Under the pieces are notes generated by a model. It ran no database searches, had not been told where the DNA came from, and saw nothing but the letters and a program-made list of their open reading frames with translations. Shown one piece after another: positions 34,808 to 59,894 of a stretch of DNA of 64,000 bases. The position numbers and the translations under genes are program-made. Source of the stretch: Antedon mediterranea (lineage: Eukaryota; Echinodermata; Crinoidea; Comatulida; Antedonidae); contig NC_092675.1 in the NCBI RefSeq assembly GCF_964355755.1, positions 2,762,312-2,826,311 on the forward strand, given 5' to 3'. Within the stretch, counting starts at the first letter, position 1, and each line of letters begins with the position of its first letter.

Positions 34808-34849
34808 TTTTTCTGTACACAGTCGAACCCCTCTTTTGGGATAACCTTA

Positions 34850-35250
34850 TCAAGGACACACTCCTATCAAGAAGACACACTCCTATCAAGAGGACACACT
34901 CCTATCAAGAGGACACACTCCTATCAAGAGGAAACACTCCTATCAAGAGGAAACACTCCTATAAAAAGGACACACTCCTATTAAGAATGCACACTCCTAT
35001 TAAGAGTGCACACTCATATTAATAGGACACACCCCTATTAAGAGGACACACTCCTATCAAGAGGAAACACTCCTATAAAAAGGACACACTCCTATTAAGA
35101 GTGCACACTCCTATTAAGAGTGCACACTCATATTAGGAGGACACACCCCTATTAGGAGGACACCCCTATTAAGAGGACACACTCCTATTAAGAGGACACA
35201 CTCCTATTAGGAGGACACACTCCTATTAAGAGGACACACTCCTATTAAGA
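34850..35250. repeat. 18-20-bp minisatellite downstream of CHAF1A
   Basis: About 21 imperfect units like GGACACACTCCTATTAAGA, with GAGTGCACACTCATATT variants arranged in higher-order blocks. The unit resembles the subterminal sequence of family D elements (GGGGACACCC...TTAATAG), so it probably grew from one. Confidence 0.9.
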
Positions 35251-35658
35251 GATGCATTATTATTGGTGGTTACTCTATCTGTAACGTTAATTGATCTATG
35301 ATCTGGTTATTTAATGATAATTTTTAATTAGTTAAAAAGTTCCGTTAGACGTAAACTCGTATTCTAACGATTTCCACTCATTTAGTCTATTTATACTGTA
35401 GTATCTATAGTATTTTTGTAATTTTTATTTCAAATATTCATTGAAATATAAATAATTTTCTGTATTTTGGCAAAATTAAACCTTTTGATACAGTGTACCG
35501 CTGTCAAATCTATTTAAATAGTGATTGGTTTTTTTTTAATGTATGTACTTCGATATCAATTCCATCATACTTACGACATAGACACAGCGCAAGCGTATTG
35601 ACCAATGGCAAGCGACAGTTCGAATAATCCATCACTTGTGATTTGTCAAATCACTTAT

Positions 35659-36010: not shown

Positions 36011-37700
36011 TATTGATTCAGTGCAGTACAGTATTCTATTCAGTTCGTTATAGCTTTTTTTTAAAAGTAATTTGTATCCGTTTGTGTGATGGTTGTGAGA
36101 TAAAAACTAAATATCGTACAATCGTCCCAGAAAGTTTATTCATGTGAAAAGCCACAAAAGGTTTGATGGGCTGATTATTTTTTTAATCTAAGATTCAATA
36201 ATCAATGTTGCTGCTGGGTCCTATCCTGTAAATTTTCCATGGGGACACCAAATAAGGGAGGTAAAAAATGGATTTAATCATGTGAAAAGCCACATAAAAG
36301 TTGTTGGACATTGTTCCCATATGTGTATACAATGTTAAAACAGTAATGACAGCAACATTATCCTGTAAATGTTAGAAAAACAAAGTAGGGTAGTCTAAAC
36401 TAAGACTAAAGTTCTGTAATTGGTGTACATTTACAACGATGCTAATATGGAATGTAGTTTGAAATTATGTTTACATTTTACACAATCGCAATTTAAAATT
36501 AAACCTCAAAATAAACCAATCCGCGGAGAGTTAGCGTTTGACTTTTAACATCGTATCGGATTTAGAATTGTACCTACTGCGTTTCGCAACATATTTAATA
36601 TTCAGAGGTTAATTTGGACATGAACCAAACTGTTTATGGTATTTTAGGTTAAGTGCTTGTCTATTAACTTTCTCATAACAACACGAAGAGATGGAGTTAT
36701 TTGTTTATTTAAGTTATAACAAAATATGCTTCAAAAACGTGAGAAAACTTTGAAGCTTAAAAAATGTATAATAGTTTTGTCACACGAAGTAGGCTTCTTT
36801 GAGACATCAATTAAAATACCTTATCGTTAATTTATCAGTCATTTTGTCGATTTTATCGTTTTAATTTCGATACACTTAGCTGAAAATAACTAGCTATAGA
36901 TATTTCATTGGCCTGCAGATTTCCGTACAAAAAAAAAATACATTTGGTATGTTTCACGTTAGGTTAGAAACAATGCCTAATTCTTGTCAATTCAGATAGT
37001 GAACAATTACGTTAGATTGCCTTGGTAAAGCTCTCTCTACACCAAACTAGTTTGACAAAAATAATGTGATGTGCCCAAATATGGTAGTGATAAGCTTAAA
37101 AACGGTAGTGATATGACATCATCATGTCCACATTTGGGCACATCACATTTTGTTTTTGTGACATAAAGTTTGATAGTGTAGACAGGGCTTAGGAGTTGGG
37201 CGTTTTTACTGATCGTAAAATCTCCCCATCATAATTAAGAAAAGTTTGTATAACAATTTAATTCTTAGCTTTATAATCTCGGGCGATGTTTTCATTTTTG
37301 CAAATTTTTCATCTTCACATTGCGCACATTATTAATTATTTAGTTATCTTTGGATTCTCTTTGTGTTTTTGTACGGAAAGTTTTCCGACGTTTCTTTTAT
37401 TAATGCATTATTGGCGCATTATGTCGCATTGCTATTGTTCACTGGTATTTGTGCGTATTTACATATCACTGATCAGGTGAAACATTATTTAATTGAATAG
37501 GCTGCGTGTGCGTTGTTTCGGCCGAAGAATGTTAGTAAGACTTATATCGTATTTCTTTAAGATGTGAATTTTTGCCGATACTGTGAGTAGTTAGCTTGTT
37601 CTAACAATAATGTATTTATTACATTGAATGAATTAGTTAAGTTGTTAAATACCTTTCATTATTTGTATGAAATATTAACCACTGCATTTCCTGAGCTGAA
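36011..37700. other. Upstream flank of the IFI27-like array
   Basis: No gene seen. From 36711 the sequence is homologous to 47339 onward (ATGCTTCAAAAACGTGAGAA; GAAGTAGGC), so this is the left part of a duplicated unit. A family A MITE sits within it. Confidence 0.6.
37028..37190. mobile_element. Family A MITE in array flank
   Basis: TA then AAGCTCTCTCTACACCAAAC at the left, complement ending GACAGGGCTT at the right; interior TATGACATCATCATGTCCAC. Absent from the homologous segment near 47860, where the copies join without it. Confidence 0.85.
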
Positions 37701-38650
37701 ATATAGGCCTATATGCCTACTGTAGACGTTTTCATGAGGATAAGATAGGCCTACGGATAGATTTCGTACTTTTTTTCGTACCGGGTATGCATGGTAATTC
37801 AACAACAAAGCCATGATCTTTTAATATAATAATGGGCTGTTTCCTGAGTGGTAGAGCAGTTTCGATCCTCTCTCTTTTTGGGGAAAGTGAATCTCTTACT
37901 TTTCGGATTTTCTCCCTTATATATTTCTCCTCTACCTAACACCCAAGATAAACCAACCAAACATTAAGCACCGAGGGTTGCTACAAAATTATAAAGAAAT
38001 ATTTGTATGATAATTGTTATTCTTAAAAACATATCTCGAAAGAAAAAATAAATAACTCAATGGCTTTCAGAGCCAAACGATTGCAAATACTGCCCTCATT
38101 TTCCCATTTGGAAATGACGTCATTTGTTATGTGGGAAAACCATGGATTAATAATCCATGGAAAAACCTAGTTCAGATATTAATAAAAATATAAATATTTT
38201 TGCACATATGGCGTTTCATACGTGTATTACTTGAGTGTATTTTAACGACGACGTGTTAATGATTAATGGAATGAGATAAAAAAGACAATAAATACAGACG
38301 TGGAGCAAGTCTAGGATTGACGCAGTAGTTCTACAAACTCATTGTGAGCCTAGAAGAACTTAGATTTACAGGTCAAAATAACGGACAACAGCACAGTAAG
38401 TTAACGTATGTCATTTATTTATCTAAAAACTTAATTACAGTATAGTGTGATTGCATCGGGGAAGGAAATCGAAGAAGTGACTAATTGGGCTACATCAATT
38501 GGGTCTATCTAATCTAAGCATACAACAATGTCAAATAGACGAAGTTTTGATTTCTAAATAGATAGATGAATAGATATTATACAGGGGCCTAGATTAGGCC
38601 TAATATTCAGTGGCCGATCTCGTCTCTTTTCTGTCTGGGTCTGCCCTTGT
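37700..38650 (+). pseudogene. Truncated fifth unit of the IFI27-like array
   Basis: Carries the 5' block shared by all units: the TTCGTACTTTTTTTCGTACC stretch, the promoter-like segment with TTTGGAAATGACGTCATTTG, a noncoding exon ending at 38395 in AACAGCACA before donor GTAAGTTAACG, and the following intron as far as TTCATAGCGCTAAATAAATA. It stops before the signal-peptide exon; the satellite at 38874 begins instead. Either a 5' remnant or an alternative first exon of copy 1. Confidence 0.6.
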
Positions 38651-38873
38651 TCATAGCGCTAAATAAATAAGATAATTCGAGCTTCAAAAAGTAGACCTAT
38701 AGTATAATAGGACCGGCGTGAAGTTGGACACTTATTCCTTATTCGATATTCATTTTTTTTGTGAAGTTGGATTCTTATTCGATCGACATTCACATTCACA
38801 TGTATGGGGCGCAATAATGTGTAATATTTTAATTAAATGATTTTATACTTACGGCTTAGATTAACTAGGGCTA

Positions 38874-40200
38874 TGATTTATAGGGCTATAACTTCGTTAT
38901 AAACGGCATGGACCGGGATGACGATACATGGGTTGGGGCGAGTAGGGTCCAGTCATTTCAGAAAATTACCACTTGCCCGGTCCATGCCGTCTAGCTGTCA
39001 TTTTACACCATTTTAAAACGTTACTACAATTTAACGTTTTTTAAAATAAAAAATGCAATATAACCGGATGATTTATAGGGCTATAATTACGTTATAAACG
39101 GCATGGACCGGGATGACGATACATGGGTTGGGACGAGTAGGGTCCAGTCATTTCGGAAAAATACCACTTGCCCCGGTCCATGCTGTCTAGCTGCCATTTT
39201 AAAAACGTTACCACAATTTAATTTTTTTTTAATAAAAAATGCAATATAACCGTATGATTTATAGGGCTATAATTACGTTATCAACGACATGGACCGGGAT
39301 GACGATACTTGGGTTGGGGCTAGTAGGGTCCAGTCGTTTCAGAAAAATACCACTTGCCTCGCTCCATGCCGTCTAGCTGCCATTTTACGCCATTTTAAAA
39401 CGTTACTACAATTTAAGTTTTTTTTAAATGAAAAATGTAATATAACCGGATGATAATAGGGCTATAATTACGTTATAAACGGCATGGACCGGGATGACGA
39501 TACATGGGTTGGGGCGAGTAGGGTCCAGTCATTTCAGAAAAATACCACTTGCCCGGGTCCATGCCGTCTAGCTGTCATTTTACGCCATTTTAAAACGTTA
39601 CTACAATTTAATTTTTTTTTATTTATAAAAAATGCAATATAACCGAATGATTTATAGGGCTATAATTACGTTATAAACGGCATGGACCGGGATGACGATA
39701 CATGGGTTGGGGCTAGTAGGGTACAGTCGTTTCAGAAAAATACCACTTGACCCGTTCCATGCCGTCTAGCTGCCATTTCACGCCATTTTAAAACGTTACT
39801 ACAATTTAACGTTTTTATAAAAAATGCAATATAACCGGATGATATATAGGGCTATAATTACGTTATAAACGGCATGGACCGGGATGACGATACATGGGTT
39901 GGGGCGAGTAGGGTCCAGTCATTTAAGAAAAAAACCTCTTGCCCCGGTCCATGCCGTCTAGCTGTCATTTTACGCCATTTTAAAACGTTACTACAATTTA
40001 TGTTAAAAAAAAAAAAAATGCAATATAACCGGATGATATATAGGGCTATAATTACGTTATAAACGGCATGGACCGGGATGACGATACATGGGTTGGTGCG
40101 AGTAGGGTCCAGTCATTATAGAAAAGTACCACTTGCCCCGGTCGCGCGCCCCGGTCCATGCCGTCTAGCTGTCATTTTACGCCATTTTAAAACGTTACTG
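38874..40200. repeat. ~190-bp satellite, seven units
   Basis: Seven tandem units starting near 38874, 39068, 39256, 39450, 39648, 39838 and 40032. Each contains AACGGCATGGACCGGGATGA and, about 95 bp later, the reverse complement CCCCGGTCCATGCCGT, so each unit can fold into a hairpin. Units are about 95 percent alike by eye. After the last unit the sequence resumes array-unit homology (ATGCATTTCCTCGGCTGAAA). Confidence 0.93.
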
Positions 40201-41290
40201 ATGCATTTCCTCGGCTGAAATATAGGCCTAATAGACCTACTCCTAGATGAAGATAAGATAGGCCTACAGATAGATTTCGTACTTTTTTTTGTACCGGGTA
40301 TGCATGGTATTTCAACAACAAAGTAATGATCTTTTAATATAATTATCATGGGCTGTTTCCTGCGCGGTGTAGAGCAGTTTCGATCCTCTCTTTTTGGGGG
40401 AAAGTGAATCTCTTACTTTTCGGATTTTCCCCCTTATATATTTCTCCCCTACCTAACACCCAAGAAAAATCAACCAAATATTAAACACGAGGGTTTTATA
40501 ATTGCTATTAAACAAAATTATAAAGAAATATTTGTATAATAATTGTTATTCTTTAAAACATATCAATAAAAAACTCAATGGCTTTCAGCAAAGAACTTAT
40601 AACACAAGAATCTCCTGTTCTTCAATTTGCATTCAAAACACAGTATCGGAAGTACAGGGTTAAAAGGTCAAACTGGGCGACGCCATTTCACAGCATGGAG
40701 CAGCGCCCCCTCCAAACTAGGAAGTCAATTACTCTACCCCCCTCTAGAGTATTAGCAGATCCCTCTATGATTTTGACTTTCTAATTTGATGCGGGCGCCC
40801 TACTCCTCAGTCAATTACTCTATCCCCCCCCCCCCCTAGAGCATTAGCAGATCCCCTAGAGCATTAGATAGCAGATACCCAGTTCAGACTTTTTGAAAGG
40901 TTTGAAAGAGATCAAAATAACGGACAACAGCACAGTAAGTTACAGTATGTCATATGTTTATCTAAAATCAGAGTGTGATTGCATCGGGGAAGGAAATCGA
41001 ATCGAAGAAGTGACTAGGGCCTAGGCCTAATTACATTAGGTCTATCTTGCTAGGCCTACAACAATTTCAATCAATAGGCAACCATTTGATTTCTTAAATA
41101 GACTAGGCCTAGGCTACTAGCCTAAATTCGCATATAAAGAATTATACAGGGGCCTAGATCAGACCTAATATTCACTGGCAGATCTCGTATTTCTGTCTGG
41201 GTCCGTCCCCTGTTCATACCGCTAATAGTTATACATAAGATAATTTTAGCGTAGAATAAAACCTATAATATAATAAAACCTATAAATAAA
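40200..41290 (+). promoter_or_regulatory. 5' block and noncoding exon of IFI27-like copy 1
   Basis: Second occurrence of the shared block; the noncoding exon ends at 40934 (CAACAGCACA) before GTAAGTTACAG. Compared with the other units the promoter part is altered between 40590 and 40900, where duplicated TAGAGCATTAGCAGATCC words and a C-run occur. Confidence 0.55.
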
Positions 41291-41319
41291 AACCTTCTAA
41301 AGCCCGGCGCACACTAGAG

Positions 41320-41620
41320 CTATCGGCCAAACCAACTGGCATCAAAGATTGTATTATAGCGCCGCGTACAATCTTTGCTGGCATGATGAGTAAAGGCAAA
41401 GATTGTATAGCGCCGCTACGCGTAGCGGCGCTATATAATCTTTGGTAAAGGGTCTTTCACACCTGTTCCGGCACGGTTCCGGTCCGGCGAATCGAACATC
41501 AATGTTTCGTTTTCACGCGGCTATGCCTCAATCGATATGTGCGTAGCCGCGTGAAAACGAAACATTGGCGTTCGAATTGGATTTTCCGGCGCCGTGCCGG
41601 GGAATTCGTGAGGAATCGTC
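41320..41620. mobile_element. Family J inverted-repeat element and adjoining hairpins
   Basis: Arms 41457-41525 and 41541-41603 are inverted copies (AATGTTTCGTTTTCACGCGG / CCGCGTGAAAACGAAACATT, then CGGCACGG / CCGTGCCGG). Just before it, AAAGATTGTAT and GCGCCGCTACGCGTAGCGGC form further perfect hairpins. It lies in the intron before the first coding exon of copy 1 and is absent from copies 2 and 3. Confidence 0.7.
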
Positions 41621-41767
41621 CACGCGCGTGCCGCTGAGGAAAATATCTATCGTCGTGTTTAATATTTTCTGTTTGCGTCCGATAGAACATTGTAAATCCT
41701 CATGGTGGCCAGTTTTCCCTGTCCTTCGATCAGGCGAATCAATATCGGATTTGTTTTTTTGTTTCAG

Positions 41768-42464
41768 ATGTCGAAAGTATCAGCAATAATTTGTATCACT
41801 CTTATTGCATCCATGGCAATCCAACCATCTGAAGCAGGTAATTGGCCCTAATAAGTCAGATATCTTATACATTATATCAAAAGAGTCCTGTTCGCGAACT
41901 TTCTAGATCCGCACCTGGTACCATTCCGAGTATGGCTGCGTTTTCTTGGACTGGATAGATTTTCAGATCTGATCTGAACATTCACTTTCATTATCTATCA
42001 CTAGGTTTTATTGTGAGGGAAAGTTGTCATTTCCTTAATTATTATTGGATTGGATAGTGATTATTGGAAGAATGAACAGTTATTTAATTTACATGATTTA
42101 TAATCAGAAATATCGCCTTTTTTAAAATGACACAAAATCGCTTGAATTATCTGATAAAGGATAAAAATATGTCTTTCTCTTATTGCTATTTATAGGAGTC
42201 GGTCACTGGATAGCAGGAGCTGCCGCAGCGGTAACCGCTGTTGCCATTGTCCCTGCGGCATTAGGATTTGGGGCACTAGGAATTGCGTCCGGTTCAATAG
42301 GAGCCGGAATGATGTCAGCTTCGGCTATTGCTAACGGTGGTGGTGTTCTAACTGGAGGCGTAGTGGCTACACTACAATCAGTAGGAGTTGCTGGGGCATC
42401 GTATAGTACTTATGCGGCTGCCGCTGCTGCAGGAGGCGCTGCAGTAGACTACTTCACCAATTAA
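41768..42464 (+). CDS. IFI6/IFI27 (ISG12)-like secreted small protein, copy 1
   Basis: Two coding exons, 41768-41837 and 42196-42464, in phase, 112 residues. Exon 1 encodes a signal peptide ([15 protein letters not shown] then MAIQPSEA); the phase-1 intron falls exactly at the predicted cleavage site. The mature 89 residues are almost wholly Gly, Ala, Ser and Val and match the IFI6/27 domain: [44 protein letters not shown]. In vertebrates this family is interferon-inducible, membrane-associated (mitochondria or ER) and linked to apoptosis and antiviral defence; function here is unknown. A noncoding exon ending at 40934 probably precedes it. No disabling change seen. Confidence 0.87.
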
Positions 42465-43044
42465 GATTAACGATACGCAAGTTGATAATTGCGTAAATCG
42501 TTGCGTCGCACAAATTTCCCTTTTTTGCATGAATAAGCTATAGTTAAAGAATTGTTACTCGTTTGTTTCCATTAGTTTGATCATGGAGGAATTATAGCTT
42601 CTATGGTCTGATCATCATTTAATACTTGTCTGAGTGTATTAAAGACATTGCTGGTTAGTAAAGTGCTTTAATTTACTTAAAAGCTACTAATATAAAAGTC
42701 TGCGAACTCGGTACCTACCACAGTGCAGTTATTAATTGATTTGGTTTTTGAATTATTATTATTATTAGTTGTCCAGTACTACTTTCATAAGGTGCGTAAC
42801 GTAACTGCCAATAACTGGGTATAGCAACAAACACATGAGCATACTACTGATGATGCTACTATAAACACAAACTAAAGAAAGTATTACAAAGTTAAGGTGT
42901 ATTTGAAATAATGTAAATAATGTATTTCTCATGTAAGACGAATTATTGATATTTATAAAACGGATGACAATTATTTCAAATGATGGTTCTTTATTACGAT
43001 TACATCTTCAAGGATTCAATAACTATACACTATAATATCACGGG
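42465..43044. other. 3' flank of copy 1
   Basis: Homologous to the 3' flank of copy 3 (50700-51035) and, in part, copy 2. Contains the 3' UTR; no reading frame of note. From 42766 it continues as the block that also follows copy 3 after the Penelope-like insertion (from about 52096). Confidence 0.6.
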
Positions 43045-44253
43045 TATGTACCTTTCCATTACGGTTACCGATGAGAGCGACAGGATCTCCGTCGATTCAC
43101 CATTGTTTTTCTGCAATTCGAACACATCTTGAAGTAGCTGCTTTGCTGGGTGTCACAAAACCTAAGACCCCCTAAGACCTAAGACCACGAAAGCTAAGAC
43201 CCAAGACCTAAGATTACATTTGATTTGATTTGATTTATTTCGGCATCAGTACATAAAATATCACAGACATACAATTAAAATATTTATCTTTCGCACCTGC
43301 CTTGTATTTTAACTCCAACATTTATTCTGCATGCCACACCTTAAAATTAGCACTTTTATGAAAAAGAATCGCATAAAAAGTAACAAATACATTTTTAAAT
43401 GGATGATTTTACAGACGTTTTTCTCGCACAAACATTGTTTGCGAATTTCGCATGTTTTGTTTCTATGGAACGTCAAAAGAGCAAAAATTATATAGAGGGC
43501 TGAAAACTCAGTGGAGTCAATCTATTTTAACGCATTTTTTAGTGAATATAAAGGAATAAATACTCGAAAATTAATTTTAATTTAAAAATCATGATAATAA
43601 GTTTTTTGTTTCGTTTTCTTTCTGTTTTTATACTTGTACTATTAGTGTTGCTCTTTTGGCGCTCCATAGAAACAAAAATATTGAGCATGGGGAGGAGTTA
43701 CAGTAGGCCTATACAAAGAAGCACGTATGTACAATCATCAATTTAAAGGATTTATTTATTTGTTTTTATGTGTTTGTCCTTAAAGTACTTAATAAGTCCT
43801 AATTTAGGATATTAGGTATTCAGGATAAAGTTAGTTAACAAATTTGGAGTCAAAATACAAGGCAGGTGCGAAAGAAAAACCTCCTCTGAACCAACACAAT
43901 GGAGTAAATATATACCAACAAACAACCCGTCAAGTTTGTTTGTTGTAAAGAAAAAATATACATTTATTCAACGGGCGAAAATAATATGAGTTTTTCTATG
44001 TTTTGCGGTAGTATTTAATTATATTTATGGTAATAAATGAAACCTACTATGTTTAAAATTATGTATGGATAAACAAGTATTGTTTTTTAAGTTGTAGTTT
44101 ATCTTAGAATTTGTAATCTTAGGTCTTGGGTCTTAGCTTTCGTTATCTTAGGTCTTAGGGGGTTTTAGCTTTCGTGGTCTTAGGTTTCGTGACACCCCTG
44201 CTTTGCTTCAATAAAACTCTGTTTACTTGTAATCCAATAAGGTTTTCTGTTAA
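43045..44253 (-). pseudogene. RASL12-like exon fragment, split by an insertion
   Basis: Segments 43045-43147 and 44198-44253 are a decayed copy of the small-GTPase exon at 58618-58811 (AACAATGGTGAATCGAC, GAAGTAGCTGCTTTGCTTCA), joined across a 1050-bp transposon. A one-base deletion near the 'ACAGGATCTC' site shifts the frame. Only part of the exon is present. Confidence 0.8.
43148..44197. mobile_element. Family I TIR element with 10-bp target duplication
   Basis: Ends GGGTGTCAC and GTGACACCC are perfect inverted repeats, with subterminal CTAAGACC repeats. The 10-bp CTGCTTTGCT is duplicated at 43138-43147 and 44198-44207, and the empty site is seen in the sister copy near 52456. Inside, a second inverted pair (TCGCACCTGCCTTGTATTTT at 43290 and complement at 43850) suggests a nested element. 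No transposase. A 9-11-bp duplication is typical of Mutator-like elements. Confidence 0.88.
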
Positions 44254-44340
44254 TTGGGGTGTTTCCTCTAAAGTGTAAATCGTAATATTACACCTCTTAG
44301 TTTCACGGGAAAGTGTCCCCTGAATTACTTCATCGTAAAC
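44254..44340. mobile_element. Family D fragment
   Basis: AATTGGGGTGTTTCCTCTAA and GAAAGTGTCCCCTGAAT match the element in the RASL12-like intron at 58880, so it was probably copied here together with the GTPase exon. Confidence 0.6.
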
Positions 44341-44379
44341 TCGGGAGTAAAGTTTGTGTAACAAGTTAAATTTTCTGAG

Positions 44380-45369
44380 TTATTTTCATTCGGTATGTGG
44401 GAAAAACCATGGAGGAAATATATATCTATATATTTCCTCCATGGACAAATCCAGTTCAGACTTGTTGAAAGGATTGACATGTTATGCGCGATTTGAACGA
44501 TTTGCGCAATTTGAAATTGCGCAAAAAAATCCTTGCGCAATTTTAAATTGCGCAAGAATTATTTGCGCAATTTCAAATTGCGCAAGGATTTTTTTGCGCA
44601 ATTTCAAATTGCGCAATCAACTTGCGCAATTTCAAATTGCGCAAGAAAATCTTTGCGCAATTTTAAATTGCGCTGCACAATTTGTAAATTGCGCAAGATA
44701 GTTCTTGCGCAATATGACACCTTTGCGCAATTTGAAAACGAACTGTAAATTTTCCCATACATGGCTATAGGCTAGGCCTAGGCAGAGGAGTTTAAAATTT
44801 AGTATTTTATTATATAAATAAGACCATTTCAATGAAGATAATGTTTAATACTCACTTTTTAAGTTTTTAATATTAGTTTAAGCTAGGCTATGTAACCTAG
44901 TCAGTATCAGTAGTCCAGACCCTAGCTAGGCTAGAGTAGTATAGCCGGCCGCCCGCGCCGCGCCCGCCTGGTGGAACACCACCGCTTCGTTTTCCTTCGT
45001 CGGTTCTTCGACGGTATGCTAACTTATAACAATATTTGCACTACTAAAATAAGGAAATGCGATATTTATCTTTAAATTTGAATCATTCTTAGAAATTACT
45101 ATAAAAATATGGGTGTACATGATTTCACAATCTGTCGAAAAACCTTGCGCAATTTGCAGATTACTTGCGCAATTTAATACGTTGCTTGCGCAATTTGAAA
45201 CACATGTTTCAATTCAAATTGCGCAAGGATTTTTTTTGCGCAATTTCAAATTGCGCAAATCGTTCAAATCGCGCATAACAGACACAATTGGGCCTACACT
45301 AATCATTGTGCGGCTAGAAGAAGAAGAAATATTTAGATTTACAGGTCAAAATAACGGACTATCAGCACA
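44380..45369 (+). promoter_or_regulatory. 5' block of IFI27-like copy 2, interrupted by a transposon
   Basis: Contains the GTGGGAAAAACC word, a near-perfect 38-bp palindrome (44407-44444, CCATGGAGGAAATATATAT and complement), the sequence AGTTCAGACTTGTTGAAAGG, and after the 801-bp family E element the noncoding exon ending at 45369 before GTAAGTTAACG. The insertion therefore lies in the promoter or first exon of this copy. Confidence 0.65.
44480..45280. mobile_element. Family E TIR element built of TTGCGCAA repeats
   Basis: An 801-bp element with about 40-bp near-perfect inverted ends (TGTTATGCGCGATTTGAACG and complement CGTTCAAATCGCGCATAACA), flanked by a GACA duplication (44476-44479, 45281-45284). 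Subterminal regions are arrays of the palindromic unit TTGCGCAATTTCAAATTGCG. The centre holds a GC-rich stretch (CCGGCCGCCCGCGCCGCGCC). Homologous unit 3 has no insertion at this point. Confidence 0.9.
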
Positions 45370-45851
45370 GTAAGTTAACGCATGTCATTTTTTTATCTAA
45401 AAATCAGAGTGTGATAGCAACGGGGACGTAAGAAAATCAAAGAGGTGACTAATTGGGCTATATCAATTGGGTCTATCTAATCTAAGCATACAATGTCAAT
45501 AGACGAAGTTTTTATATACAGGGGCCTAGATTAGGCCTAATATTCAGTGGCCGATCTCGTCTACTTCTGTCTGAGTCCGCCCCTGTTCATAGCGCTAAAT
45601 AAATAAGACAATTATTTTGAACTTACAAGAAGACCTAAATAGGTCTACATTTTTTTTGCATTGTCTTCTAAAAACATAGTAATTCCTCGATCAGGATGGC
45701 CAGTTCTCCATGTCATTAGACCTATAGGCCTAGGCCTACTTTTTTTGACATTGTTTTTTCTAATAAAAACATAGTAAATCCTCAGGATGGCCAGTTTTCC
45801 ATGTCGTTCGATCAGGCGAAACAATACAATTGGCTTTGTTTTTTGTTTCAG

Positions 45852-46564
45852 ATGTCAAAAGTATCGGCAATAATTTGTATCACTCTTATTGCATCTATGG
45901 CAATCCAACCATCTGAAGCAGGTAATTGGCCCTAATAAGTCGGATATCTTATACATTATCAAAAGAGTCCTGTTCGCGAACTTTCTGGTACCATTCCGGT
46001 CTTCTGAGTATGGTTGCGTTTTCTTGGTCTGAATGGAATTTCCCCATATTAGTCATCAGATCTGATCTGAACATTTTCTGTCATTATCAGTGCACTAGCC
46101 TGCACTAGGTTTTATTGTGAGGGAAAGTTGTCATTTCCTTAATTGGATTGGATAGTGGTATATTGGAAGAATGAACAGTTTATTTAATTTACACGACTTA
46201 TAATCAGAAATATCGCCTTTATATTAAATGAAACAAAATCGCTTGAATTATCTGAAAGGATAAATATGTCTTTCTCTTATTGTTATTTATAGGAGTCGGT
46301 CAATGGATAGTAGGAGCTGCTGTAGGGGTAACCACTGTTGCCATTGCCCCTGCGGCATTAGGATTTGGGGCACTAGGAATTGCGTCCGGTTCAATAGGAG
46401 CCGCAATGATGTCAGCTTCGGCTATTGCTAACGGTGGTGGTGTTCTAACTGGAGGCGTAGTGGCTACACTACAATCAGTAGGAGTTGCTGGGGCATCGTA
46501 TGCTACTTATGCGAAGGCCGCTGCTGCAGGTGGCGCTGCTACAGACTACTTATTCGAAGATTAA
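45852..46564 (+). CDS. IFI6/IFI27-like secreted small protein, copy 2
   Basis: Exons 45852-45921 and 46293-46564, in phase, 113 residues. Signal peptide identical to copy 1; mature part differs at a few sites ([40 protein letters not shown]) and gains one residue with an acidic FED end. The diagnostic [13 protein letters not shown] and [15 protein letters not shown] are unchanged. The introns are close copies of copy 1's, pointing to a recent duplication. Confidence 0.87.
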
Positions 46565-46773
46565 TGATACACAAGTTAATTGCGTAAAGCGCACAAAATT
46601 CCCTTTTTTTGCATGATAAGCTATAGTTACAATGCAATCTTCAAGGATTCAATAACTATACACTATAATATCACAGATATGTTTAACATTTCCCAAAGAG
46701 GAATTATTCATGCCATAGTTGTATATGTGATGTTTTTCATTCTATAGATGTTTTAACAATAGATATTATACTA

Positions 46774-47184
46774 CGGGCGCCATCCGGCACACATTAGTCT
46801 TTTGCAAACAATGGTTTGTCTTTTGCAAACAATGGTTTGTCTTTTGCAAACAATCGTTTCTCTTTTGCAAACAATCGTTTGTCTTTTGCAAACAATCGTT
46901 TGTCTTTTGCAAACAATCGTTTGTCTTTTGCAAACAATCGTTTGTCTTTTGCAAACAATGGTTTGTCTTTTGCAAACAATCGTTTGTCTTTTGCAAACAA
47001 TGGTTTGTCTTCTGCAAACAATGGTTTGTCTTTTGCAAACAATGGTTTGTCTTTTGCAAACAATCGTTTGTCTTTTGCAAACAATGGTTTGTCTTTTGCA
47101 AACAATGGTTTGTCTTTTGCAAACAATGGCTTTTCTTTTGCAAACAATGGTTTGTCTTTTGCAATGTGTCGGATGGCGCCCCGT
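46774..47184. mobile_element. Family F TIR element with a 21-bp satellite interior
   Basis: Inverted ends CGGGCGCCATCCGGCACACA and TGTGTCGGATGGCGCCCCG enclose about 17 tandem copies (46800-47163) of TTTTGCAAACAATGGTTTGT plus C. Each unit is itself near-palindromic (CAAAC-AT-GTTTG) and varies mainly at one site (ATGG or ATCG). Long open frames across it in all directions result from the 21-bp period and are not genes. Confidence 0.93.
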
Positions 47185-48110
47185 ATATACTAGGCCTATA
47201 TCCGTTTTCTTATATTTTACTTAAATAAAAATAACAGTTAAATATTATTCATTTTTTTATTTGTTTCATATTGCTTTGATCAACGTTTTAAGGTTATACC
47301 TCAAATTGGGCCGACAATAACAAAACAAATTTATTCAAGTTATAACAAAATATGCTTCAAAACGTGAGAAACTTTGAAGCTTAAAAATATATAATAGTCT
47401 TGTCACACGAAGTAGGCCTCTTAGAGACATCATTAATTTTAAATACAGGTATTAAGACTTTTATAAATAAGCTTAAAATTTATTTTAAGTAAGATTTTGC
47501 TATGTATTGACGAGTTTTAATGATATTGCAATATATTTTAATTTATTTTGATATAGTATTATATGCATTTTTAATGTTTATATAAATCTTATTCTAAATG
47601 TTTTTTTTCTTCAATCAGTGCAATAGGAGACCTACTAGATAGTGATTAAGTTAACCTTTTAGGAATCCTCTCCCTGCCTGGTTTTGTGTGATGTTTTCTT
47701 GTTGTTTGTCCACGTTTTATATTGTACTTTTATGGAGACAAAATAAATGAAATGAAAATGAAATTAAAAGACCTTATAGTTAATTTATCAGTCCTTTCGT
47801 CGATTTTATGCTGTCGATGTTACCTAGTTGAAATCAACTATAAATATTTCATTGGCCTGCATTGCTATTGTTCACTGGTATTTGTGCGTATTTACATATC
47901 AGGTGAAACATTATATTGAACAGGCTGCGTGAGCCCTCAGAAGAATGTTAGCTGTTGTCGAAGTAAGACATGTTATCATTTTATTTCTTTAAGACGTGGA
48001 TTTTTCTTCGATACTGTGAGTAGTTAAATTGTTCTAACAATAATGTATTTATTACATTGAATGAATTCGTTAAGTTGTTATATACCTTTCATTATTTTTA
48101 ACAATGACAA
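47185..48110. other. Spacer between units, with a LINE-like tail
   Basis: From 47339 the sequence repeats the left flank at 36711. At 47430-47757 it is interrupted by about 330 bp absent there, ending in AAATAAATGAAATGAAAATG. That short-motif tail and the CTGCCTGGTTTTGTGTGATG region are typical of a 5'-truncated CR1/L2-type retrotransposon 3' end. No coding region remains. Confidence 0.5.
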
Positions 48111-48543
48111 TGAAAGTACCGTTTAATATTTTCTATGAAACTGATGCATTTCTTCGGCTGAAATATAGCAGGCCTATAGGCCTACTCCTAGACGTTTTCA
48201 TGAAGATAAGATAGGCCTACAGATAGATTTCGTACTTTTTTCGTACCGGGTATGCATAGTAATTCAACAACAAAGTCATGATCTTTTAATATATCATGGG
48301 CTGTTTCCTGCGCGGTAGAGCAGTTTCGATCCTCTCTCTTTTTGGGGGAAAGTGAATCTCTTACTTTTCGGATTTTCCCCCTTATATATTTCTCCCCTAC
48401 CTAACACCCAAGAAAAATCAACCAAATATTAAACTCGAGGGTTGTATAATATTGCTATTAAACAAAATTATAAAGAAATATTTGTATAATAATTGTTATT
48501 CTTAAAAACATATCTCGAAAGAAAACAAGGCCAACAGCCATTA
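48110..48543. other. 5' block of copy 3, left part
   Basis: Near copy of 37690-38050 and 40200-40560 (GATAAGATAGGCCTACAGAT; GAAAGTGAATCTCTTACTTT). Interrupted at 48544 by a family G element and resuming at 49338. Confidence 0.7.
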
Positions 48544-48577
48544 AGTCGCGTGCTACAATGCATAGTGATACCGGACC

Positions 48578-48608
<31 letters not shown>

Positions 48609-49337
48609 CGACAGACAGACAGACGGACCGACCGACATAGTGAACTATACTGACCGAAATTACTGAACATGTTTAAAAATGTTGAAATGTTTAAAAACAT
48701 TTATATTTTTTTTAATTTACACGTGCGTAGCCTGTCACTTTTGACGTGCTCGTATAACGTAATTTCGAGTTGAAAAGTAAGTCAAGAAAACAGAAATCGG
48801 GCAAAAAGAGTGCGCAATAACATTTAACGCGCAGTGCGCGCGCAAAAATCTGCGCACTCATGGCAATTTTGTAAACGCTTAAAATTGCCTGAAACGTACT
48901 CTTATTTCATCGAAAATAAATTTTGAACATTTTAAGCGCGCGTACGCATGCGTTACATGCGCTACGCACGTAATTGTATTGCCATATGATGATTTATGCC
49001 CTGAAATTTATGAGTACCAAATTTTATTTAATTGTGATTCATGGTTGTTAAGATATGATTACAAACGTGATTTCGTTAAATCGTGCGTAGACCGCGTAAT
49101 TTTTTATTGCGCACCGTGAAAACATAACCACATCGATTCCTGGCCATAAGAAATATTCTGTGAAAAATTGACTTAGCTAGATTAAACTGATATCAAGATA
49201 AGGTCATAAAGCGATAAAACGCATAGTGATACCGGACCGACAGACAGACAGACCGACAGACAGACCTACAGACAGACCGACAGACAGACAGACCGACCGA
49301 CCGACATAGTGAACTATAGAGTCGCTTCCACGCGACT
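48544..49337. mobile_element. Family G element with paired GACA/GACC microsatellites
   Basis: About 794 bp with short inverted ends AGTCGCGTG and CACGCGACT. Two near-identical segments, GCATAGTGATACCGGACCGA plus a GACAGACC run ending GACATAGTGAACTATA, occur at 48558-48655 and 49220-49316. The middle is rich in GCGCGC words. Absent from the homologous position in units 1 and 5. Confidence 0.8.
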
Positions 49338-49551
49338 AAAAAAATAACTCAATGGCTTTCAGTCAAACGATTGCAAATACTGCCCTCATTTTCCCATTTG
49401 GAAATGACGTGTCATTCGGTAATGTGGGAAAAACCCAGTTCAGACTTTTTGAAAGGATTGACGCAATAGTTCTACAACACTCAATTGTGCGCCTTCCGTG
49501 TTTCAGAAGAAATATTTAGATTTACCGGTCAAAATAACTGACTACAGCACA
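49338..49551 (+). promoter_or_regulatory. Promoter-like block and noncoding exon of copy 3
   Basis: Has AACTCAATGGCTTTCAG, TTTCCCATTTGGAAATGACG, GTGGGAAAAACC and AGTTCAGACTTTTTGAAAGG in the order shared by the units, then the noncoding exon ending ACAGCACA at 49551 before GTAAGTTAACG. Conservation across units argues for a real first exon; transcription is not proven. Confidence 0.6.
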
Positions 49552-49961
49552 GTAAGTTAACGTATGTCATATTTGTGTGATTGCATCGGGGAAGGAAATC
49601 GAAGAAGTGACTAATTGGGCTACATCAATTGGGTCTATCTAATCTAAGCATACATTGTCAATTGACGAAGTATTGATTTCTTCAAAATAGATAGATGAAT
49701 AGATATATGAATTATACAGGGGCCTAAATTATGCCTAATATTCAGTGGCCGATCTCGTCTATTTCTGTCTGGGTCTGCCCTTGTTCATAGCGCTAAATAA
49801 ATAAGATAATTTGAGCTTACAACAAGTAGACCTATATAGATAGGCCTACTTTTTTGACATTGTTTCTTCTTATAAAAACATTGTGATTCCTCCAGGGTGG
49901 CCAGTTTTCCATGTCCTTCGATCAGGCGAATCAATACAATTGGCTTTGTTTTTTGTTTCAG

Positions 49962-50677
49962 ATGTCAAAGGTATCAGCAATAATTTGTATCACTCTTATT
50001 GCATCTATGGCAATCCAACCATCTGAAGCAGGTAAGGCCCTACCTAATAAGTCAGCTTTAGGCCTATATCAAAAGAGTCCTGTTCGCTAACTTTCTGGAT
50101 CCGCACCTGGTACCATTCCGGTCTCCTGAGTATGGCTGCGTTTTCTTGGACTGGATGGAATTTTCCCATTATTACTCATCAGATCTGATCTGAACATTCT
50201 CTTTCAATCACTAGGACTAGGTTTTATTTTGAGGGAAAGTTGTTATTTCTTTAATTATTATTGGATTGGATAGTGGTATATTGGAAGAATGAACAGTTAA
50301 TTAATTTACACGACTTATAATCAGAAATATCGCCTTTATAAATGACACAAAATCGCTTGAATTATTTGATAAAGGATAAATATGTCTTTCTCTTATTGCT
50401 ATCTATAGGAGTCGGTCACTGGATAGCAGGAGCTGCCCTAGGGGTAACCGCTATTGCCTTTGCCCCAGCGGCATTAGGATTTGGGGCACTAGGAATTGCG
50501 TCCGGGTCTACAGCAGCCGGAATGATGTCAGCTTCGGCTATTGCTAGTGGCGGTGGTGTAGCAGCCGGAGGCGTAGTGGCTACAATGCAGTCTATTGGAG
50601 CTGCTGGGGCATCGTATGGTGCTTATGCGACTGCCGCTGCTGCAGGAGGCGCTGCAGCAGATTACCTCGCCAAATAA
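49962..50677 (+). CDS. IFI6/IFI27-like secreted small protein, copy 3
   Basis: Exons 49962-50031 and 50409-50677, in phase, 112 residues. Signal peptide as in copies 1 and 2. Mature part more diverged: [60 protein letters not shown], ending ADYLAK. The splice acceptor CTATAG differs slightly from TTATAG of copies 1 and 2. All substitutions keep the small-residue character, consistent with selection for a membrane-inserting sequence. Confidence 0.87.
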
Positions 50678-51023
50678 GAATAAGATTAAAGATACGCAAG
50701 TTGATAATTGCGTAAAGCGTTGCATCGCACAAATTTAATTTAAAGTTGTTACTCGTTTGTTTCCATTAGTTTGATCATGGAGGAATTATAGCTTCTATGG
50801 TCTGATCATTATTTAATACTTTTCTGAGTGTGTTAATGATATTGCTCGCTAAAAGTGCTTGAATTTACTTAAAAGCTACTAAACAATAGTCAATATAATA
50901 TCGGTTGATGGTTTATATGGAGAAAATCAATAAAATGATTTAAAGTCTGCGCACTCACTCGGTACATACCACATAGTGCAGTTATTAATTGATTTGATTT
51001 TTGAATTATTATTATTATTAGTT

Positions 51024-52095
51024 GTGAAGTACTACTTTTTTTTTTCTTTTTTTTTATCTTTTGTGGTTAACTACCACCTTTATTCAACAATTACAGAATC
51101 TCGTATATATATTTACATTATTTTCTGCATATTTTTTTGTTATGTTATCTATTAAAAAATATATTGCATGTTTAATGAAAAAAGCTGTTTAGTTATGAAA
51201 CGTTTGTTAACTTATTTATCATAATTTGTGTATCTTTCAGTTTATATATTTGTATTTGATTTGCCCTTTAGGGAAATGCTTAACAGTAGGCCTAGTATAC
51301 CATGCTGTCACAAGAAATGGCACTAACAAAATTGAAACATATGTTGGACTGACAGAAAATACATTTAAGTGTAGATACAATGGGCATACAAGCTCATTCT
51401 GTAATGAAAAGTATAAAAATAGTACAGCGCTTAGCTAACATGTTTGGAAACTAAAGATGACAACATTACATATAATATTAAATGGCGAGTATTAGCCAAA
51501 TGTAAGCCTTATTCCAATATAAGTAAACGCTGCAAACTATGTCTGCAAGAGAAATATTTCATTATATTTAAGCCAGATATTTGCTCTCTTAGTCAAAGAA
51601 ACGAATTATTTAGCACATGCAGACACAGAAGAAAATTCTTATTGAGATATAAAGGTTACTAATTAAAGACACTTATTGATAAATAGAACAGTTGAGTATA
51701 CAACTATTGTTTTGTTGCTTGCATATATTAACTATAAACAGCCGCTTCTAATTACTTAGAGCCTAACACTTGAAGATTGAGGAGGTATTTTATCTCTCTC
51801 ATGAAACAGTTTGTAGTGTTAATAAATATGTTGAATTATTAACCTGAGTCTTGATTTTTTTCATTCATATTTGTATATGTATATAATATCAATACATTCA
51901 CACGTATATATAGAAATACATACTACATATATCAAACATATATATACATACACATACCTACACAATATATACACATATGCATAAAATTAACATTAAAACC
52001 AAGAACGATAAAAAATATACACAAATATAATACATTAGACCTATTATACACGGGCATAAAAAAACCTATAAAGTACCTGTGAAGTACCCTACTTT
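51024..52095 (+). mobile_element. Penelope-like element remnant (GIY-YIG endonuclease part)
   Basis: About 51274-51663 encodes a GIY-YIG-type domain as found at the end of Penelope-like retroelements: [34 protein letters not shown], then [14 protein letters not shown] and [13 protein letters not shown]. An in-frame TAA after NSTALS and a one-base deletion nine codons later break it, and no reverse transcriptase precedes it, so it is 5'-truncated and dead. A direct repeat (GTGAAGTACTACTTT at 51024, GTGAAGTACCCTACTTT at 52079) flanks the insertion; the empty site is near 42772 in the copy 1 flank. Confidence 0.85.
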
Positions 52096-52359
52096 AATAA
52101 GGTGTGTAATGTACGTAACTGCCAACTGGGTATAGCAACAAACACATGAGCGTAACTGATGATGCTACTATAAACACAAACTGAAGAAAGTATTACAAAG
52201 CTATAAGGTGTATTTGAAAAAATGTAAATAATGCATTTCTCATGTAAGAAGAATTATTGAAATTATTAAAACGGATGACAATATTTCAAATGATGGTTCT
52301 TTATTACGATTACATCTTCAAGGATTCAATAACTATACTCTATAATATCACGGGTATTA

Positions 52360-52497
52360 CCTGTACCTTTCCATTACGGTTACCGATGAGAGCGACAGGA
52401 TCTCCGTCGATTCACCATTGTTTTTCTGAAATTCGAACACATCTTTGGAGTAGCTGCTTTGCTTCAATAAAACTCTGTTTACTTGTAATCCAATAAG
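52360..52497 (-). pseudogene. RASL12-like exon fragment after copy 3
   Basis: Second decayed copy of the GTPase exon at 58618-58811, here uninterrupted (GAAGCAAAGCAGCTACTCCA, AAAAACAATGGTGAATCGAC, TAACCGTAATGGAAAGGTAC) and keeping the splice donor side. A one-base deletion shifts the frame, as in the fragment after copy 1, so the deletion predates the duplication of the two units. Confidence 0.85.
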
Positions 52498-52612
52498 GTT
52501 TTCTGATAATAGGGGTGTTTCCTCTAAATTGGGGATAAAAGCAGTGTTCATAATATTACACCTCGTTAGTGTCCCCTGAATAGGAGTGTCCAAAATTAGG
52601 GCTGTTCATCGT
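52498..52612. mobile_element. Family D fragment
   Basis: TAATAGGGGTGTTTCCTCTA and GTGTCCCCTGAATAGGAGTG match the element at 58880; it sits at the same side of the GTPase exon fragment as in the unit after copy 1. Confidence 0.6.
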
Positions 52613-53408
52613 AAACTCGAAGTAAAGTTTGTGTAACAAGTTATTTTATAGCTTTGGGTCACGATGTTTTCATGTTCATCATCTTCACCTTTCCCACATT
52701 ATTCTCTATTTTAGCATATTAATTATACCTTTCTTTTGTTTTTCTCTTTGCGTGTGCAGTTTATTAAAGGACAACTTTACCGAGAGCCATATTTTGACAC
52801 CGTATTAGGAATGTACAACATATGATTTCAGAACAATCGAAAGATTTACCATATCGCCATGCGCGCGCTCGTCGTACAGTCGTCGTCGCCGTAAATTGCT
52901 ATGACGTCAAGTGTGGCTTAGCAAAATGTACAGGCTGTCTAATAACGATTGTAAATACACAGCCCTCATTGTCCCTTTTTTTAATCGATGTCAGAGATTT
53001 GAAACATAAAACAGATGTCATGTTGGAAAAACCAACTAGGCCTACTATTTACAGAAGCAAATATCGTATGATGGTATTTGTACGAGAGAAATCGATCGTA
53101 AATATCAGATTGAGAGTCTAGGAAAACGTATTCAGACTTCCAGAAAACGTTTGAAATTGCATATCAATTTAACCACTACATCAGAATTTAGCACAGTAAG
53201 TTTTGTAATGTGTTATGGTAGGGTAGGCCTATACATTAATCTCACATTATCTACTAAAAGCCTCAGTTTAAAACGGGCCTGAGAGTAGGCTATATCTGGT
53301 GTGATGGAACTGCTCACGCCGAGCTGGGTGGATACTACAGTATTTGGTTTTGTGAAAAAGCCATGTTAAACAGACGAAGCAACATAACACACATTGTTTT
53401 TCTTGCAG
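52613..53408 (+). promoter_or_regulatory. 5' region of IFI27-like copy 4
   Basis: Diverged from the other 5' blocks. A noncoding exon with TTTAGCACA ending at 53195 before GTAAGTTTTG is recognisable by position and donor. A 99-codon frame at 52822-53121 overlaps this region but resembles no known protein. Intron runs to the acceptor CTTGCAG at 53408. Confidence 0.45.
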
Positions 53409-54262
53409 ATGTCAAAAGTATCGGCAATCATCTTTATTTGTCTCATTGCATCAATCCAACCAGCTCAAGCAGGTAATTATAATGCAATTAAGGCATAGAA
53501 ATATTTTGTTCATGTTAATATTCTGTCTTGAATCTTGGATTATGCATGTCACATTTGGAACTTATCGGCTTAACCGAAAGTGTGCCCAATATTAATAATT
53601 TAGGGAAAAAAACTCGAAAAGAATTTAATGTATTAATGCATCTATAGGTAATTCTTATATTTCTTACTCGACTACCTAATTTCACTTACTAGAAACACTT
53701 AATAAAAATCAAGTAATTTAATGTAAAGATATTCCCGTTTTTAACGACATTTATTCTTGATGTTTATGTCCTTGTGAATATTCATTACAAAAATAACACA
53801 TAGCAAACACCAGGTGTGTTATTTTTGTATTTGGCTGTTAAGGAGTAGTGCTATTTCTATTGTTATAGAAAACGTTGTCATATTTGTGTTTTATAAATTG
53901 TTATTTCGCCAACAATTATCGATAGATTGAACTGTATTTAGTGGGAAGATCTTAAACCGGTTTGTAATTTTATTTCTTTTCATTTTGCTTCAGTACTCCC
54001 CTTGATAGGAGTTGCCTTAGCAGTAGCTGGGGTTGGATTTGGCCCAGCCGCTATTGGGTTTACGACAGCCGGCATTACTGCTGGCTCTGCGGCAGCGGCA
54101 ATGATGTCTGCTTCTGCTATAGCGAGCGGAGGTGGAGTTGTAGCTGGAGGCGTAGTGGCTACACTTCAATCAGTTGGAGCGGCTGGAGTATCCTACGGCA
54201 CTTAGGCTGCTGCTAGTGCAGGAGCAGCTGCAGGGCGTTACATTGAGGGTGAAGATGAGTAA
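53409..54262 (+). pseudogene. IFI6/IFI27-like copy 4 with premature stop
   Basis: Exons 53409-53472 and 53994-54262. Signal peptide is shorter ([21 protein letters not shown]) and the body is the most diverged member: [61 protein letters not shown] at 54203-54205 replaces the tyrosine codon of the other copies; reading past it gives AAASAGAAAGRYIEGEDE and a TAA at 54260, with composition and acidic tail intact. Either a recently disabled gene, a functional shorter protein (85 residues), or a read-through case. The stop removes only the last 18 or so residues, after the conserved core. Confidence 0.75.
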
Positions 54263-56243: not shown

Positions 56244-59200
56244 TTAAAATATCTTGAACCCCTTTTTGTTGAATATTTTAAAACTTGTTACAGTCTTTTT
56301 CTGAACTACTTTCGGTGGTTTTGGCGACGGAGACTTTGATCTGTCACCTCGTTCTTTACTACTCGTTGCCGCAGAAGGCGATAATAATAGTTTATCTTCC
56401 GATATAAAAAGTGGTTTTATTGGCATATGTCGCTCGATTTCTCTCTTAATTTCACGAACCATTTTGTGCAACACAATTTCAACATCTTCAAAGTCACCAG
56501 CCGCTGAAACTTCATGATATGCGCATGCGTATTGGGTAGCCAGGATAGTCCCTTCATCTTTACTCACTTGTCTGAAAAGATAATGTTGTACACAATTCGA
56601 ACACAGAAAGAAAACATTAGTGAAAGAACGTCAGTCATCGGTTAGTCAAGGAAGTAGAGGAACTATGGTCAAAGGTTTCCACTGGGGCGCCGCAACGACG
56701 TAAGCGCGCAGCAAGAGATTAATTTGATGGATCGAATGATGGATATCCGAATTACCGCTTGCGATTGATCAATTTCATTACGTTTTGCATACGTCGTTGC
56801 GTTGCGCCCAAGTGTGGGAAAAGCTTGGTTCGCGCAAAGGATCATCATCATCAATTATCAATGACTGTCGAAATTATCTTGCGGTTGCGCTTACGTCCTA
56901 GCGTTGCCTCCAAATGAGAACCAAGCTTCTCATTAATATTAGCAATCACAAACGAGAGTTCGATTGATTAATCGCTTGTGGTCAATTCAAAAACTTGCGC
57001 TGCGCATGTGTACTGCGTTGCGTCATAAAAGGAACCAGTCTTAAGGCGCATCTGTCATATCCTCACTCATTTACGTTGCGTTACGTCCTTGCGTTGCGTC
57101 ACTAGTGGGAACCGAGCTTTAAGAAGGAGCATCTGTCATATCCTAAACATTCATACATCATCATCACCACCACTTTGTATATTGTTGCAATTAGCAATTT
57201 GTGTTAAGTACAATTTTCTGTCATGCGCACAGCGTCTTATTCCCACCGAGTCGACCGGCTTACCTTAGACTTGCCCCAAGTCTGTATTGTTTTTACTCGG
57301 GGTACCCGAGTCTAGGACTTACTCATTTTCTCCTCTCCATCTGGACACTATTGAGTAAAAAGTGCGATTTTTAAAGTACTACTCCTCCCTTATTAGTTGT
57401 AGTATTGAGCTGGGATTTAGCATGAATATACTACAGGGACATGTCCTTAAACCTATAGAGCTGGATTTTTAAATTTCAAACCCGATGCAGCCATATGACG
57501 TCTCGAAGATGGTACCATATAGCCGTATTTGGTAGGTTATTGATGTGTATGTGACGTCACATCCCGTCTTATGACGTCATTACAGCTTCATTTGCTGTAC
57601 CCCGAGTATCGCACATTCGTGCTTTTTAGGTGATCATTTAGAATAAAATGATCACCTATTGTTATTTGTTAATTAATTTGTTTAATTAAGAAGCCACAAT
57701 GTGTGACACACACCACAGTGTTATGTAGTTATATGCGGCTTCTTGGCGTAGTGGTTATCACGTTTGCTTAACACGCAGATGGTACCGGTTCGAGCCCGGG
57801 CTAAACCTTTTTTTTAAACTTTATGGTGAAAAGTACTGTATACGCAATATGATAATTATACAGAGTATATCTTATTTTTATTATTTTTTAAAATAATTAT
57901 TTTGTGTAATCGGTAATTATCACTTTTACACATGTTTATTTTGCTTTGTGCTTATTACCATTTATTTGTAATTTAAATGGGTTAAAAAACTTTCTGTAAC
58001 CCACATTTTTAGTGTAAGAGGTTTCGTAGTGTAGTGGTTGTCAAGTCTGCTTAACACGCAGAAGGTCCCGGTTCGAGCCCTGGCGAAACCTATTTTTTTT
58101 TTAACTTTATGGTGAAATATACTGTATACGTAATATGATATAGAGTATATCTCGTTTTATTACTCGGGGTACCTGAGTCTAGGACTCTCTCATCTTTTCC
58201 TCTTCTTCTTCCATCTGGACACTATTGAGCAAAAAGTGCGATTTATAAAGTACTACTCCTCCCTTATTCATGGTAGTATTGAGCTCAGATTTAGCATGAA
58301 TATACTACAGTGACATTTCCTCAAAGCTATAGAGCCGCATTTTTTAATTTCAAACCGGATGCAGCCATATCACGTCTCGAAGATGGTACCGTATAGCCGT
58401 ATTTGGTAGCGCGGTCTTATGACGTCATTACAGCTTCTTTCGCTGTACCCCGAGTATCGCACACTCGTGCTTGTTTTTTTATTTATTTGTTTTTATTTCG
58501 ACCGCGATTTTTGTCTGAAAATACAAAATACACGTATGAAACGCCATATGTGCAAAAATATTTATATTTTTACTAATATTAAGAAAAAACTCCGTCTGGA
58601 GCCCAGACTAGGCTTACCTGTATCTTTCCATTTCGTTTTTGTTGCCGATGAGGGCGACAGGGATCTCTGTCGATTCACCATTGTTTTTCTGTAATTCGAA
58701 CACATCTTGAAGTAGCTGTTTTGCTTCATTAAAACTCTGTTTACTTGTAATACTGTAGACAACCAAAAGACCATCCGACCAATCCAGGTACCGTTCAATG
58801 TCACGTGCCTCCTATAAAGCAGAATATATAGGCCTACAGTAAAAATTAAGAAGACGCCGCCAGGATCCAAAAATTAGGTTTTCTCATAATAATAGGGGTG
58901 TTTCCTCTAAATAAGGATCGCAGGATATATTACCCCACGTTCGTTTCACGTGAAAGTGTCCTCTTAATAGGGTTGTTCACTGAATAGGAGTGTCCCAAAG
59001 CAAACAATTCGGTAATCACAGAAACCCTCTCCGCTTCGATATCCAATGTTCCTAATTCCTATGCATCGATGGCTTTGTGGCGTGTATATATCGGCCACGA
59101 CATCCAGGAGATGGTTCGCGCAGAATAAAAGGTGTTTTAAGAGGTCTATCTCTATAGTTCCTACGCACAAATACGGAGATGGGAGATTCTTTTACATTTT

Positions 59201-59316: not shown

Positions 59317-59894
59317 CTGAAAAAAAAAATAATAAATTAAGTTTCTTGTAATTGTCAAAAAAAGTAAAAGTCAACGACGCACTGTGGACAATGAGTATCC
59401 TCAATCATAATTCAATTGTTTACAAGCAAATATACCCGCCCACACAGGAGCTATCCTATCCCAGTACAATCATTTCATATCTCATTAGGCCTACCTCACT
59501 CCTCCAACCGGAATGAGGTACTCACGCCCGCCAGTCCACCCCCACCCCAACCGCTAACCGCTAACCACTACCCTCTCCGCTGGGGCGGTTTAATTAGTTT
59601 AATCTAGTACAATTACGGTCACCGTACATAATACTTATACGGATCATTTTCATTGCGTGCGAAATCACTCTGATGACCGTGTATTACAGAGGTGAATGAT
59701 TTGTATATAGAGTATCTTGTCATCTACCGTAATTATTTTTATTGTACGTAGGCAGGACCGGAATATAAACACATAATCAATTTAATAATACGATGTATAT
59801 TCACTCACAATGACATTTGAACGGTGATGTCAGAATTTATAATAACAGCTATCAGTAAAGTGATACATCACCGACAGGATTATAAAAGCATATT

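Follow-up and report, generated by a model that had tools for sequence, protein, structure and literature searches.

The window, a 64,000-nucleotide stretch of the Antedon mediterranea genome (C6:2762312-2826311), holds a small family of tandemly arranged IFI6/ISG12-type genes between 37.7 and 54.3 kb, in which four copies with coding sequence (c1-c4) and a 5′ orphan that is non-coding (R0) lie head to tail (Table 1). Four of its stop-to-stop frames contain the block MMSASAIA(N/S)GGGV...VVAT(L/M)QS(V/I)G, and exon 3 of every copy matches the Ifi-6-16 profile (PF06140) at 70-72 bits against a curated cut-off of 29.1, which excludes a chance match. In c4, profile position 67 is reached before the stop, and positions 4-82 are covered if the frame is read past it. 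Among solved structures, the family profile had one match, human IFI27L1 (2LOQ, E 9.7e-19), which aligns end to end over the whole domain but differs in that the aligned region begins at chain residue 25. A first-pass annotation had called the genes IFI6/IFI27-like and proposed the Ifi-6-16 profile search as a check; this identity is borne out, as is its description of three intact genes (c1-c3), one with a premature stop and one 5′ remnant in head-to-tail order. An exon-by-exon search with PF06140 through 354 Mb in 18 contigs returned at least six matches, namely c1-c4 and two on contig C10, a count to be read as a lower bound; tblastn alone revealed a third C10 copy, which carries a frameshift. 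No relatives of the cluster were found in a phage collection and the PHROGs. The ISG12 family was reportedly defined by Parker and Porter in 2004, with members from unicellular eukaryotes to humans. Occurrence of the Ifi-6-16 family outside vertebrates is already published, and the present cluster is mostly an ordinary, well-supported addition.

Table 1. Features of the ISG12-type cluster and of related loci on contig C10 (window positions unless C10 is given)
Feature	Position	Strand	Evidence
R0, orphan 5′ remnant (promoter side, non-coding exon 1, start of intron 1)	37683..38709	+	self-BLAST, donor motif
Tandem array, ~195-bp unit, 7 copies, between R0 and c1	38841..40207	.	repeat search, family D3
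c1 non-coding exon 1, 3′ end	40909..40934	+	conserved GCACA/GTAAGTT donor
c1 exon 2, start codon and signal peptide	41768..41837	+	70 nt, phase-1 donor
c1 exon 3, Ifi-6-16 domain and stop	42196..42464	+	PF06140 E 2.8e-20; gene model
Copied Ras-like exon fragment (pseudo-exon)	43047..43147	-	88% to 58619-58725
Further copied Ras-like exon piece	44198-44233		
c2 non-coding exon 1, 3′ end	45326..45369	+	conserved donor, self-BLAST
c2 exon 2, signal peptide	45852..45921	+	gene model
c2 exon 3, Ifi-6-16 domain	46293..46564	+	PF06140 E 4.9e-20
c3 non-coding exon 1, 3′ end	49509..49551	+	conserved donor, self-BLAST
c3 exon 2, signal peptide	49962..50031	+	gene model
c3 exon 3, Ifi-6-16 domain	50409..50677	+	PF06140 E 9.8e-20
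Second copied Ras-like exon fragment	52357..52489	-	88% to 58614-58751
c4 exon 2, signal peptide, two codons shorter	53409..53472	+	exon 1 donor after 53195
c4 exon 3, Ifi-6-16 domain to in-frame TAG	53994..54205	+	PF06140 E 1.5e-19; gene model; genome-wide match spans one TAG
Ras-family gene exon, source of copied fragments	58614..58811	-	PF00071 E 2.2e-9
Three tandem units, exons A, B, (C,) D and ISG12 exon E	C10 ~1,206,700-1,216,640		L007 3702-5957, L008 4338-4637
Two more A-B-C domain copies	C10:898086-901226 (L024), C10:12395796-12398918 (L026)		no PF06140 match nearby

The window contains exactly five occurrences of the motif GCACA/GTAAGTT (the slash marks the exon border), one ahead of each gene and one in R0. 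Since the motif persists in c4, where the neighbouring non-coding sequence can hardly be aligned, we take it to be the donor of a non-coding exon 1, an exon absent from the first-pass annotation. In every coding copy, the start ATG of exon 2 stands immediately behind the acceptor (TTTCAG/ATG or TTGCAG/ATG). Exon 2 measures 70 nt in c1-c3 and 64 nt in c4 and ends GCAG/GTA in phase 1, and exon 3, the last, holds the entire ISG12 domain. All four copies retain the exon 1 donor, the acceptor of the ATG exon and the phase-1 intron although the c4 introns no longer align, and the conserved GT/AG sites and open frames indicate that c1-c4 are probably spliced in this way, with predicted proteins of 112, 113, 112 and 91 amino acids, respectively. 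The in-frame TAG of c4 (54203-54205) sits at a Tyr codon of c1 and removes ~18 C-terminal residues. The frame past it (AAASAGAAAGRYIEGEDE, then a stop) resembles the intact tails and is open to a TAA at 54260-54262; the ISG12 motif is nearly whole despite the premature stop, and function may not necessarily have been abolished.

Inspection for n-, h- and c-regions and for small residues at -3 and -1 predicted an N-terminal signal peptide ahead of the ISG12 domain in all four copies, identical in sequence in c1-c3 and different in c4. The predicted signal peptide ends at SEA/G in c1-c3 and at AQA/V in c4, and the phase-1 intron splits the codon that follows, so that the earlier claim of an intron exactly at the cleavage site was right to within one base. 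The view of the signal-peptide exon as a separable module also stands, since on C10 the same ISG12 exon, again entered in phase 1, lies behind different exons.

The mature chain consists of 47-56% Gly+Ala and is hydrophobic, with 19-residue Kyte-Doolittle windows above 1.6, and the whole proteins contain only 1-2 Lys/Arg and 0-4 Asp/Glu residues. Hydropathy indicates a strong first membrane stretch at approximately residues 24-58, and a second stretch is not resolved. An AlphaFold2 model of the mature domain had a mean pLDDT of 44 and a pTM of 0.22 and was therefore set aside. Roughly half Gly+Ala, hydrophobic and nearly uncharged, the mature chain is easier to reconcile with insertion into a membrane than with secretion, and the label 'secreted' in the first-pass annotation is doubtful. 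Human IFI6 (G1P3, 6-16) is built from a signal peptide, TM1 and TM2 (PMC6035266) and is reported to reside in the ER, where it is stabilized by BiP and prevents virus-induced (flaviviral) membrane invaginations (PMC10605781); others have reported the protein as mitochondrial (PMC6035266). The composition of the mature chain, together with the plan and reported ER residence of human IFI6, suggests that c1-c4 encode ER or endomembrane proteins.

Similar to IFI6 with its two TM stretches, the Antedon copies combine a predicted signal peptide with one PF06140 ISG12 domain, but they are missing the hydrophilic stretch found in IFI6 between the signal peptide and TM1 (PMC6035266), and the interferon control of the human gene was not seen in a promoter consensus scan of the present cluster. 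Shrimp LvIFI6-16 is likewise an invertebrate member with an N-terminal signal peptide, a TM region and an IFI6-16 domain, but was cloned as one gene, and both poly(I:C) and the virus WSSV induce it (PMC9144789).

Self-comparison showed that c1, c2 and c3 share blocks at ~4.1-kb spacing. By self-BLAST, R0 matches 40202-40588, 47859-48525, 49454-49836 and 45303-45613, and it carries the donor motif GCACAGTAAGTT at 38391, with the donor after 38395. No coding sequence was found in R0; the '5′ remnant' of the first-pass annotation is real, but copies the promoter/exon 1 side only and no coding exon. Fragments of a Ras-like exon lie among the copies (Table 1), so the duplicated segment once extended into the flanking Ras-family gene. 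Together, the orphan 5′ piece, the truncated copy and the co-duplicated Ras-like fragments agree with the proposed tandem birth and death. The accompanying claim of a recent expansion holds for c1-c3, whose introns are 89-94% identical (intron 2 differs by 6-11%), but not for c4, an old copy separated from the others by a dS of 0.72-0.89 and by the loss of intron similarity. With a dN/dS of 0.23-0.32 between c4 and c1-c3, the family has been under purifying selection over that span. Among c1, c2 and c3, the mature exon diverges about as fast as the intron next to an invariant signal peptide, and dN/dS is ~1 between c1 and c2. No test for dN > dS on the mature exon was significant, and the only nominal differences in selection are those pointing to purifying selection in the domain core. 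Unmerged haplotypes were considered as a source of c1-c3 and judged unlikely, given introns 6-11% apart, different flanks and an ordered arrangement on one contig.

Promoters were scanned for consensus motifs of the IRF/ISRE, NF-kB, Rel-type and STAT classes. No ISRE/IRF motif (GAAANNGAAA) was found in the 1 kb preceding any of the exon 1 donors, and no NF-kB motif (GGGRNNYYCC) near any exon 1. The Rel-type motif GGGAAAANCC lies near c2 and c3 and, reversed, near c1; it has no exact counterpart in c4, is at best shared by descent and was not counted. The genome encodes two IRF loci, Rel-domain exons at several loci and 69 TIR_2 matches, and neither it nor the control genomes gave a match to interferon (PF00143). 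An exon matching bindin (PF02084, E 2.3e-28), a fertilization protein known, to our knowledge, only from echinoderms, is also present. Published invertebrate relatives point different ways on an immune role: knock-down of the poly(I:C)- and virus-induced shrimp gene led to higher mortality (PMC9144789), mussel IFI27/ISG12 was enriched in haemocytes, which had been stimulated (PMC4581086), and an IFI27-like transcript of a sea cucumber goes down in Vibrio disease (PMC4906609). An immune role of the cluster is plausible and unproven, and neither 'secreted' nor 'immune-type' is established as a description of these genes.

Taken as a whole, the locus is best explained, in our judgment with good probability, as a tandemly duplicated family of ISG12 membrane proteins that are targeted to the ER and lose their signal peptide by cleavage. 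Each member would be a short protein that begins with a cleavable ER signal peptide and continues into a single ISG12 domain, whose Gly/Ala-rich helical region most likely forms a membrane-inserted hairpin broken at the NGGG/SGGG motif. Following ER targeting and removal of the signal peptide, the protein would be retained in the ER/endomembrane system, the site at which vertebrate IFI6 alters membranes in virus infection or stress, and a role of the cluster in defence or stress might be tentatively suggested. The copies would have arisen by segmental tandem duplication carrying pieces of the neighbouring Ras-like gene, with c4 being old and c1-c3 younger.

A mitochondrial destination, with the N-terminus serving to direct the protein to mitochondria, where it would tune apoptosis as proposed for human G1P3 and ISG12a, draws on a report that placed human G1P3 in the inner mitochondrial membrane and assigned it a putative mitochondrial signal at the N-terminus (PMC6035266), and on the reported mitochondrial location of porcine ISG12A (PMC5578005). 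The Antedon leader instead has the features typical of ER signals: one Lys and no Arg, a hydrophobic core that is long, and a cleavage motif of the small-x-Ala type. The mitochondrial reading seems unlikely. Antimicrobial-like immune effectors, exported as Gly/Ala-rich chains that insert into microbial membranes, would be in keeping with the clear predicted signal peptides and with ends that change fast behind a signal peptide conserved in c1-c3. The near-uncharged, TM-like mature chain is nevertheless neither cationic nor cysteine-rich, as antimicrobial peptides are, dN is not significantly above dS, and among homologues with a signal peptide the best studied is reported to be ER-resident (PMC10605781), so that secreted effectors appear quite improbable.

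The same set of genes could also be a decaying array with little present function, most copies being unexpressed or pseudogenes. The intact frames and splice sites of three copies, a domain core nearly unchanged between c1 and c2, and purifying selection in the comparison with c4 make this very unlikely, despite the orphan R0, the premature stop in c4, the repeats inserted between copies, the replaced c1 promoter and the c1-c2 dN/dS near 1. Taken alone, the cluster mainly offers a clean illustration of tandem turnover within a known family. What ISG12 proteins do in vertebrates is still disputed, and an invertebrate whose genome contains IRF and Rel genes and a small, compact set of family members in two architectures could show the role of the domain before interferon control.

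The second architecture, on C10 and thus outside the window, is the one unexpected point. In the tandem units found there, exons A-C encode a ~140-residue domain (VHIIHAGED...), and the ISG12 exon E lies behind four exons; unit 2 is frameshifted, and unit 3 is without a recognisable exon C. In unit 1, each of exons A-D has a length divisible by three and phase-1 borders, and joined in silico they form one open frame ending in ISG12, the last base of the exon upstream of A being assumed. As in c1-c4, the intron leading into the ISG12 exon is in phase 1 and falls at the same alignment column, but this exon is preceded by the exons of the A-B-C domain and not by a signal-peptide exon, and it therefore occurs with two different leaders. 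The motif order of the A-B-C domain recalls TIR; a TIR_2 E value of 0.13 and an hhalign probability of 0.2% against the genome's own TIR domains do not support that identification, and the domain is left unassigned. It is conceivable, if rather doubtful, that the ISG12 exon is a phase-1 module that takes two kinds of leader, either a signal-peptide exon or these exons with TIR-like motifs. If so, ISG12 would be a general membrane-acting output domain that can be joined to a domain for sensing or signalling, and this would hint at its function in vertebrates.

Several other features share the window with the cluster. A CoA-transferase family III gene (PF02515) occupies 14149-15424 (minus strand), and a probable gene for the CAF-1 large subunit, recognized by eye and with no Pfam match on the one exon tried, spans 27952-34807 (plus strand), followed by a 19-bp array at ~34800-35310. 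A long inverted repeat between c1 and c2 (44480-45280), made of short TTGCGCAATT-type repeats, is probably a mobile element, and between c2 and c3 lies an array of ~18 copies of a 21-bp unit (46794-47185) in which several frames are open. The Ras-family gene flanking the cluster extends over 56244-59404 (minus strand). Two tRNA-Val (AAC) genes or tRNA-like copies, at 57741-57807 and 58019-58092, are flanked as a pair by 82%-identical blocks at 57290-57627 and 58157-58475.
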